NCBI GenBank assembly: GCA_029210915.1
Contig: JARGGJ010000014.1
Coordinates: 1-38,511, forward strand
Source of the DNA: Patescibacteria group bacterium
GTDB taxonomy: Bacteria; Patescibacteriota; Patescibacteriia; 2-12-FULL-60-25
Length of the DNA stretch: 38,511 nt
Reading direction: 5' to 3'
Program-made: the position numbers and the translations under genes
Notes under the pieces: model-generated
What the model was told of the DNA's origin: nothing
What the model saw: the letters and a program-made list of their open reading frames with translations, nothing else
Databases searched by the model: none
Shown: piece after piece, positions 34,284 through 36,559 of the stretch
Numbering within the stretch: the first letter of the stretch is position 1
Layout: the number at the start of each line of letters is the position of its first letter

Positions 34284-34368
34284 ACGTTACAGTCTTAACG
34301 TCATAAAGTCATAACGTCTTAACGTAGCAACCAAATCAACTCCGTTACGACGTTATGACGTTAAGACT
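34284..34368. repeat. Inverted GACGTTA-word tracts between the methyltransferase gene and elp3
   Basis: AACGTTACAGTCTTAACG-like words occur on one side and TCCGTTACGACGTTATG-like words on the other. They are complementary, so the spacer can form a long hairpin. Confidence 0.7.
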
Positions 34369-34381
34369 TGTCCCTAAATTC

Positions 34382-36559
34382 ATGTTAATCAAACCTCCCT
34401 TGGATATCGCCAAAGCCGTGATCAAATCATTGGCTGATTTGGATTCGCCGACACGCAAGGATTTGATGAAAGTAATTCGCAAAACAATCACCGGAACAAA
34501 CTACGCTTTTCCAACTTCGATCCAACTCTGGGAAGCATATCGCGAGCTTTTAAATGAGGGTTTAGAAAAAAATGAAACAATAGAACGAGCACTAAGAGTT
34601 AAAGATGTACGCACCGATAGCGGAGTCGCTCCTATCACTGTACTCACAAAACCATATCCTTGCCCCGGCAAATGCGTATACTGCCCCACAGAGTACCGCA
34701 TGCCCAAAAGCTACATTAGTAGTGAACCAGCCGCGGCTCGCGCTCTCAGCCTGGATTTTGACCCCTACGAACAAGTAAAACAGCGCGTCGAAGCTCTAGA
34801 GCGCAACGGCCATACAGCTAACAAAATCGAACTCATCGTCAAGGGCGGCACCTGGTCCGCTTACCCCCAAGATTACCGCGAATGGTTCATTACCAGATGT
34901 TTTGAGGCCGCCAACGAACTCGGTCAACCCTCTATAGCAAAGGGCGACAACAGCCCCCTTGTCAAAGGGGGACATTCAGCGCAAAGCACTGAATTGGGGG
35001 ATTCTCAGTCCACAAACGAAACCGCTTCCTACCGCATCATCGGCCTCACAATCGAAACCCGCCCCGATCACATCACCCCCCAAGAAGTAATCCACCTCCG
35101 CAAACTCGGAGTTACCCGCGTCGAACTCGGTTTGCAAATCATCAACGATAGAGTTTTAGAGCTCACGGGTCGCGGAACAACCGTCGCCGACGCTGAACAA
35201 GCTATCACACTGTTAAAAGCCGCAGCTTTTAAAGTCGACGTCCACATCCTCCCCGGTCAACCCGGCGCATCACGCAAAGATGACCTGGAATCTTTCAAAA
35301 CATTATTCGACGATCCCCGCTTCCGCCCCGATATGATCAAGCTCTACCCTTGTGTTGTACTCCCCAATTCCGAGCTATACGAACAAACCATGCGTAGAGA
35401 ATTCAAACCCTTGGAAGGCGAAAATCTTCGCGAGCTCTTAATGGAAATGCAAACCATGATCCCCTATTACTGCAGAGTTTCTCGCCTCATCCGCGATTTC
35501 CCAACCGGTGATATTTCCCACGGCAACAAACAAACCAACCTCCGAGAATCTATCGAAACAGAAATGAAAAAACGCGGTATCCATTGCAAATGCCTGCGCT
35601 GCCGTGAAGTTGGCCACGTTCCGGGCGATCATACTCACGACAAAACCCAACTCTTCGAAGAACGTTATGAAAACGCTGGTGGAATAGAAGTATTCCTCTC
35701 AATCGAGAACGAAGACAGAAGCGCAGTGTTTGGTTTTTGCAGGCTCCGCTTGCCTCAAATCCCCCAATCCCGCCAGGGCGGGATATCCCCCTTTGACGAG
35801 GGGGTCGCTATCGAAGCTGATGATTTACGTATTCATGGTGAAATTCTACCGTACAAAGCTTCACTTAAAGAAGACGCGCAAAAATTACGCCGTAATCAAA
35901 CTCTCGCTGAGAAAAATATGTGGTTCGATGTTTTATCTAAAGATAAAACAGGCTTTCGTTTTCTGAGACAAAAACCGATTGATTCATTTATCGCTGATTT
36001 TTATTGCTCTAAACTTTTACTTATTATCGAAGTTGATGGAAAGATCCATGACAAACAAAAAGAATACGACGATTCTCGAACGTACTGTTTAGAGGATCTA
36101 GGCCTAAAAGTCATTCGTTACACAAACGAAGAAATACTTTATAACATCACCGCAGTAAAAAAAGATTTGGATTCCCAAATCCAAATCAGACTAAACGAAA
36201 TTAAAAATTTAGCCACGATAAGCAAAGCTTCCGAGACGCCCCCTCGTCAAAGGGGGACAATCGCACAAAGTGCGATTTGGGGGATTTACGAAGCCTTCCC
36301 AATCCTCCGCACCTCCGCCCAAATCCGTGAGCTCCACACTTACGGCACAGCTTTAAACATCAATCAGCAAGATAAAGACGCTTCTCAACATAAAGGTTAC
36401 GGCAGAAAATTGATGGCAAGAGCGGAAGAGATTGCAATCGAGGAAGGCTACGATAATATGGCCGTCATCTCCGGCATCGGAGTTCGTGAATACTACAAAC
36501 TACTTGGATATCACGAAGAAGACACCTATATGGTGAAAGATTTACAAAACAGCGATTAA
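34382..36559 (+). CDS. elp3: Elp3-family radical-SAM/acetyltransferase with embedded DUF559 nuclease
   Basis: Elp3 uses a 4Fe-4S cluster, SAM and acetyl-CoA to put a carboxymethyl-type group on U34 of tRNAs. The start is placed at ATG 34382 (MLIKPPLD); the ATG at 34355 lies in repeat DNA. Cluster cysteines are Cys94, Cys98 and Cys101 (CPGKCVYC). LTIETRPD and the zinc site CKCLRC follow. The C-terminal acetyltransferase domain starts with FGFCRLRLP and resumes with IRELHTYG, GYGRKLM and VREYYKLLGYH. At 725 residues it is some 200 longer than usual because of two repeat-derived insertions. One is a 50-bp repeat near residues 191-207. The other is a 529-bp cassette after RLRLP encoding a DUF559 domain (about 500-600). 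The frame stays open throughout, so the protein may still work if the insert loops out. Confidence 0.95.
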   Translation: MLIKPPLDIAKAVIKSLADLDSPTRKDLMKVIRKTITGTNYAFPTSIQLWEAYRELLNEGLEKNETIERALRVKDVRTDSGVAPITVLTKPYPCPGKCVYCPTEYRMPKSYISSEPAAARALSLDFDPYEQVKQRVEALERNGHTANKIELIVKGGTWSAYPQDYREWFITRCFEAANELGQPSIAKGDNSPLVKGGHSAQSTELGDSQSTNETASYRIIGLTIETRPDHITPQEVIHLRKLGVTRVELGLQIINDRVLELTGRGTTVADAEQAITLLKAAAFKVDVHILPGQPGASRKDDLESFKTLFDDPRFRPDMIKLYPCVVLPNSELYEQTMRREFKPLEGENLRELLMEMQTMIPYYCRVSRLIRDFPTGDISHGNKQTNLRESIETEMKKRGIHCKCLRCREVGHVPGDHTHDKTQLFEERYENAGGIEVFLSIENEDRSAVFGFCRLRLPQIPQSRQGGISPFDEGVAIEADDLRIHGEILPYKASLKEDAQKLRRNQTLAEKNMWFDVLSKDKTGFRFLRQKPIDSFIADFYCSKLLLIIEVDGKIHDKQKEYDDSRTYCLEDLGLKVIRYTNEEILYNITAVKKDLDSQIQIRLNEIKNLATISKASETPPRQRGTIAQSAIWGIYEAFPILRTSAQIRELHTYGTALNINQQDKDASQHKGYGRKLMARAEEIAIEEGYDNMAVISGIGVREYYKLLGYHEEDTYMVKDLQNSD
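34954..35003 (+). repeat. Double-hairpin repeat inside the radical-SAM part of elp3
   Basis: CCCCCT/AAAGGGGG, then ATTCAG-GC/GC-CTGAAT around AAA with one mismatch, then TGGGGGATT. It is translated as SPLVKGGHSAQSTELGD, just before STNETASYRIIG. Confidence 0.92.
35758..35804 (-). repeat. Left inverted repeat of the DUF559 cassette
   Basis: AATCCCCC, then the perfect hairpin ATCCCGCC/GGCGGGAT, then CCCCCTTT/GAGGGGG. It is in the opposite orientation to the right copy. Confidence 0.92.
36238..36286 (+). repeat. Right inverted repeat of the DUF559 cassette
   Basis: CCCCCT/AAAGGGGG, then AATCGCAC/GTGCGATT around AAA, then TTGGGGGATT. Almost identical to the copy at 8196-8243. Confidence 0.95.

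Follow-up and report, generated by a model that had tools for sequence, protein, structure and literature searches.

A DUF559 nuclease cassette with inverted hairpin arms lies in frame within Elp3 of a Ca. Uhrbacteria genome and probably represents a widespread mobile element

Introduction

Palindromic repeats lying in frame within bacterial genes have been known since 2000 as Rickettsia palindromic elements (RPE). These are hairpins that have entered coding genes without shifting the frame and are tolerated there unspliced (PMC2229807, PMC10969869), and the movement of such small mobile sequences has been named an open question (PMC2229807). Among DUF559 proteins, a cyanobacterial gene has been assigned to the EDxHD homing family (PMC9403480) and another family member has been investigated as Vsr-like (PMC12907096). 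The DUF559/COG2852 proteins VsrA of Caulobacter and PDB 3hrl belong to the same family as the nuclease described here, and a repeat association is undescribed for them in the literature searched; that search, which covered few subscription papers, found no tie of DUF559/COG2852 to inverted or palindromic repeats, and a prior description is possible.

The locus described here, a DUF559 gene between hairpin arms within elp3, resembles RPE in that its arms are also palindromic, lie in frame in coding genes and are unspliced. It differs in arm sequence and host range, and whereas RPE have no known enzyme, the DUF559 element has a nuclease-bearing form in the same genome and genes. With the EDxHD homing endonuclease I-Bth0305I it shares a nuclease fold and a selfish-gene habit, and perhaps also the conserved acidic and His residues, but the DUF559 cassette has no surrounding intron or intein, carries its own hairpin arms and encodes a compact protein (~130 aa) with no extra DNA-binding modules. 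As in REP/REPIN-RAYT systems, one enzyme gene lies between inverted palindromic repeats and non-autonomous copies occur genome-wide, as singles and inverted pairs; the enzyme, however, is a PD-(D/E)XK-type nuclease rather than a Y1 transposase, and some copies are in frame within genes. Like an intein, it is a selfish in-frame element with a nuclease domain in a conserved protein; unlike an intein, it shows no splicing domain, sits in permissive loops rather than active-site motifs and would remain in the mature protein. In its behaviour the element combines a homing gene with RPE/REPIN elements, and it fails as an intein and as a RAYT system.

Results and discussion

The cassette within Elp3

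The window (the whole stretch of DNA analysed, 38,511 nucleotides, contig C5) belongs to a metagenome-assembled draft genome (1.46 Mb, 98% complete) placed in Ca. Uhrbacteria (Patescibacteria) by its nearest named relatives. The features of the locus are as follows.

34355..36559, + strand: elp3 ORF, the host gene (radical SAM + KAT), 734 aa, sole elp3 copy of the genome
34954..35003, - strand: solo arm in the elp3 radical-SAM loop, in frame; hairpin B 34954-34971, hairpin A 34972-34995, GGGGGATT 34996-35003
35757..36287, + strand: whole in-frame cassette AAATCCCCC...GGGGGATTT, 531 bp = 177 codons
35757..35804, + strand: left arm; AAATCCCCC, hairpin A (35766-35786), hairpin B CCCCCTTTGACGAGGGGG (35787-35804)
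35864..36175, + strand: DUF559 (PF04480) EDxHD/Vsr-like nuclease domain
36239..36287, - strand: right arm, inverted; hairpin B (36239-36256), hairpin A (36257-36278), GGGGGATTT

The insert in Elp3 is a real, in-frame, arm-bounded DUF559 cassette, in the order hairpin arm, intact nuclease, inverted hairpin arm. The elp3 ORF is free of stops and matches TIGR01211 (Elp3; 519 bits) on either side of the insert, and its radical SAM, radical-SAM C-terminal and acetyltransferase matches are interrupted by a full DUF559 domain (PF04480, E 6e-31, aa 504-607) between RLRLP and IRELHTYG, so that the unbroken frame claimed by the original prediction is borne out, as is the presence of inverted hairpin repeats around an intact DUF559 block, every invariant residue of the family being kept. 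The arms, initially detected at 35761-35804 and 36239-36282, follow a general layout of AAATCCCCC, hairpin A (variable in sequence) and hairpin B (CCCCCTTTGACGAGGGGG), and the border bases AAAT...ATTT place the ends of the cassette at 35757 and 36287. The insert had been given as 529 bp (35758-36286), a length for which a two-base target duplication or slightly different borders seemed to be required; at 531 bp, or 177 codons, such a duplication is unnecessary. The solo arm at 34954-35003, in the same gene as the cassette, had been missed. No ATG, GTG or TTG lies in frame between the left border of the cassette and the nuclease domain, while a start is present in 131 of 132 free-standing copies; the elp3-borne nuclease is therefore apparently made only as an Elp3 fusion.

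In an AlphaFold model of the full fusion, most of Elp3 on either side of the cassette reaches pLDDT 90-97. The arms are modelled as disordered linkers and the nuclease as a domain of its own, and the top structural matches are Elp3 structures.

Elp3 relatives and their loops

DUF559 occurs in the Elp3 KAT loop of three genus members (G000, G029 and G028), each time flanked by repeats, and is missing in the other genus and family members checked, so the domain is not a shared, repeat-free part of all close Elp3 orthologues. The sister species G029 (L029, WJLP01000071.1) carries the same insert as the window in an independent assembly; in G028 a DUF559 insert occupies that junction too, its arms and nuclease having diverged. 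Some DUF559-free Elp3 relatives have a solo palindrome or another type of palindrome in the KAT or radical-SAM loop, and in L149 a DUF559 cassette occupies the radical-SAM loop, the same loop as the solo arm of the window. Of the classical insertion-sequence features, inverted arms are present and no duplication was seen, there being no base-exact empty site for comparison: neither was found among relatives ~70-76% identical, searches via L243 and L240 gave partial flanks only, and the sites in L252 (Deinococcus) and L253 (Aulosira) are empty at a divergence too high for exact junctions.

As a separate observation, the Elp3 KAT loop across the family is a hotspot of in-frame palindromes of several unrelated sequence types beyond the DUF559 type (L011, L014, L015, L021), for example gtcatctcgac...gtcgagatgac in L015 and gtcatcccgg...ccgggatgac in L021.

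Cassettes in other genes and solo arms

Five DUF559 genes are present in the genome of the window. Besides the elp3 insert, a second cassette (L005) interrupts TatD in frame and is absent in 8/8 genus relatives, of which L083 has an empty loop and L082 a solo palindrome at the same loop; L003 and L004 are free-standing genes with inverted arms, and L002 has no evident arms. Solo arms lie in frame in Elp3, PheT, DNA polymerase IV and QueA, and the genome holds at least 31 hairpin-B palindromes. At L004:1825-1931 two right arms stand in tandem, ~57 bp from each other, which may be a relic of arm copying.

Our survey comprised 146 distinct DUF559 cassettes, almost all patescibacterial, 8 of which interrupt a gene in frame: those in the Elp3 KAT loop (window, G029, G028), the Elp3 radical-SAM loop (L149), TatD (L005), TsaC (L150), MurD (L147) and an unassigned gene (L151). 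The last resembles a type III methyltransferase by eye, but without a Pfam or NCBIfam match it was left out of the identified hosts. Apparent fusions to RecQ, DXR, AroD and a lamin-tail protein (L065, L144, L148, L146) were treated as upstream read-through and excluded from the count. One in-frame case outside Patescibacteria is on a finished cyanobacterial plasmid, that of Pseudanabaena galeata, where a double-armed cassette interrupts a PglX-like methyltransferase in frame; this protein has a second repeat-derived in-frame segment, and Aulosira has neither. Relatives without the cassette thus exist for Elp3 and PglX as well as for TatD. Repeat-flanked DUF559 genes do therefore lie inside other genes (TatD, TsaC, MurD, PglX), as the original prediction of a mobile nuclease tolerated within a host protein would have it. 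Mobility and tolerance in host proteins are well supported; the mode of movement would be as proposed below.

Outside the phylum, ten DUF559 genes on plasmids of cyanobacteria, Deinococcus and alphaproteobacteria were scored for arms; most clearly exceed every shuffle, and the arms of L237 score more weakly. Copies of the arms of the Azospirillum and Sphingomonas cassettes are dispersed over several replicons of the same strains. Three free-standing cassettes (L239, L243, L251) separate neighbouring genes within tight operons (paaD/paaZ, pntA subunits, sufB/sufC).

Selection on nuclease and arms

Comparison of the window with G029 gives a pS of 0.72-0.76, close to saturation of synonymous sites, and a pN/pS of 0.13 and 0.17 for Elp3 and 0.14 for DUF559, whereas the arms are identical at 97/99 nt (98%) against 873/1158 (75%) in the remainder (p=2e-9). 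The low pN/pS points to constraint on the encoded protein, and the near-identical arm bases to constraint on the DNA itself, although the identity of the arms could also come from gene conversion; either way the arms are not inert. Across 13 arms of the window's genome, every one of the 8 base pairs of hairpin A varies on both sides, pairing holds in 99% of cells, and G-U occurs in one cell; the near absence of G-U points to hairpin A functioning as a DNA rather than an RNA hairpin. Perfect hairpins could instead reflect quasi-palindrome correction.

These data bear on whether the nuclease domain has been domesticated, giving Elp3 a useful new function with the repeats as remnants of its arrival. 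Purifying selection on the nuclease equals that on Elp3 across a divergence that saturates synonymous sites, and the nuclease's own start codon is lost in the window, both of which agree with domestication; yet no DNA at the locus is better conserved than the arms, for which a fused enzyme would have no use, and the domain is confined to three genus members while being shared with hosts as unrelated as TatD, TsaC, MurD and PglX. We consider domestication unlikely. A homing gene that is purely selfish would not usually keep an intact nuclease for so long by vertical descent, as seen in Elp3, and this may point to use by the host. The strong selection on the nuclease would be expected if the element is still active, if the domain has to fold cleanly inside Elp3 or if the host benefits.

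Nuclease fold and linkage to the arms

Residues E66, D68, H72 and D79 are invariant across 41 DUF559 sequences, that of the window included, and the nuclease profile matches I-Bth0305I at E 1.2e-5. The nuclease model (pLDDT 88) has TM scores of 0.88 to PDB 3hrl, 0.74 to the I-Bth0305I catalytic domain (3r3p_B, Foldseek) and 0.35 to E. coli Vsr. The nuclease, described earlier as Vsr-like and of the PD-(D/E)XK world, is in its predicted structure closer to I-Bth0305I, an EDxHD homing endonuclease, than to the Vsr of E. coli.

The upstream and downstream flanks of 143 patescibacterial cassettes were aligned as inverted repeats, with a threshold score of >=15. This score was reached by 66% of cassettes, by 6% of mismatched cassette flanks and by 0% of shuffles; about one third of DUF559 genes lack clear arms (e.g. 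L002). Within genomes, the arms of a cassette matched each other better than those of every other cassette in 65/102 cases (medians 18.5 vs 12.0; p=1.6e-10). Nuclease identity correlated with arm similarity within genomes (rho 0.54, 56 pairs), and the weak between-genome correlation (rho 0.11) was left out of the argument. The palindrome CCCTCTCC-n-GGAGAGGG was found in 56/76 genomes with a strong DUF559 match vs 9/305 without (OR 92, p=3e-40), and since related genomes are not independent, the association was also examined inside families, where it persisted (p=8e-7). The repeats are therefore tied to DUF559 both in cis and across genomes, and do not simply flank unrelated DNA.

Paralogues of the same genome, L143/L171 (85% nt) and L139/L160 (81%), are homologous from arm to arm, over ~530 bp, with unrelated flanks; that the cassette moves as a unit, arm-nuclease-arm, is well supported by these alignments.

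Against this background, the family could still consist of ordinary Vsr-like repair or restriction nucleases, with independent hairpins accumulating nearby. VsrA of Caulobacter, a DUF559 protein, is functionally tied to a cytosine methyltransferase (PMC12907096), and PADLOC returns weak similarity to methyl-directed restriction enzymes. Such a reading is quite improbable, given that arms match in cis around the cassette they flank, also among cassettes of a single genome, that paralogues move together with their arms, that the nuclease sits in unrelated genes and that the fold is closer to I-Bth0305I than to Vsr.

Possible other sources of mobility and of the insert

A Y1 transposase (RAYT/TnpA-REP) might alternatively mobilise the palindromes, which would then be REP elements with DUF559 as a passenger or chance neighbour. 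REP/REPIN hairpin repeats are thought to be mobilised by Y1 (PMC3116915, PMC8266576), and the arms have a similar general shape. No Y1 transposase was found in the window's genome, however, in spite of its many palindromes; across 381 genomes there was no Y1-palindrome association after control for DUF559 (p=0.51 and 0.79), and within Y1-free genomes the DUF559 OR was 104. Unless a diverged transposase escaped detection, mobilisation by RAYT/Y1 is rejected for the window's genome, and it is very improbable as a general account. Y1 domains were also noted in two very long ORFs (G359:C40:10989-11231, 1311 aa; G294:C8:34147-34491, 1004 aa), possibly as in-frame insertions.

An assembly artefact, pseudogene or chance open frame, which the draft status of the genome might suggest, is scarcely credible in view of the identical insertion in the independent G029 assembly, a pN/pS of 0.13-0.17 over the whole fusion and several independent in-frame cases, including that on the finished plasmid. 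An intein is rejected: the Pfam search returned no intein (Hint) domain in the fusion, and neither Cys/Ser nor His-Asn, the residues of intein junctions, occur at the borders Q-I-P.../...W-G-I-Y, in agreement with the original prediction that splicing residues were absent.

A proposed nuclease-bearing palindromic element

In our judgement the insert is probably a representative of a widespread mobile element made up of a hairpin arm, a single DUF559 gene of EDxHD/Vsr fold and an inverted arm, of which solo arms would be the non-autonomous form. The nuclease, if active, would recognise the hairpin ends, probably as DNA hairpins extruded in replication or supercoiling, and nick or cut its own ends or solo arms, whereupon repair would copy the arm or whole cassette to a new place by homing-like or hairpin-primed copying. 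We infer arm cleavage and homing-like copying from the enzyme family, and because solo arms and cassettes share loops in different species. The majority of copies would land intergenically, and intragenic ones would persist only when in frame and in a surface loop tolerant of extra residues. Inside a host protein the arms would be translated as flexible linkers and the nuclease as an added domain that is not spliced out, with Elp3 presumably continuing to function.

On somewhat better than even chances, this element represents a new class of autonomous bacterial element in Patescibacteria, Cyanobacteria, Deinococcota and Alphaproteobacteria, in which a lone EDxHD-type nuclease between hairpin arms, with no transposase, mobilises solo palindromes and can be stably inherited as a translated, unspliced domain of housekeeping enzymes. 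If so, such a transposase-free element might explain the spread of palindromic elements that lie in frame. In-frame palindromic repeats now have a candidate enzyme in cis, from one of the commonest nuclease families of 'unknown function', and the question of palindrome movement therefore becomes directly testable in laboratory strains. The locus also suggests that a selfish nuclease can persist unspliced in conserved genes by residing in the protein as a domain. Odd annotations of a 'DUF559 fusion' may accordingly mark insertions rather than functional fusions.

Two further observations concern palindromes elsewhere. Genome G106 holds 66 copies of CCCTCTCC-n-GGAGAGGG with a weak DUF559 match (E 1.6e-5), possibly a decayed or missed nuclease. 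A separate repeat in the window's genome, not of the DUF559 type, consists of CCCCCTTnnnnnAAGGGGG followed by tagattcgattgtaaacaatcgaatcagag and is present in three copies (L224:1763, L229:1548 and L229:3293).
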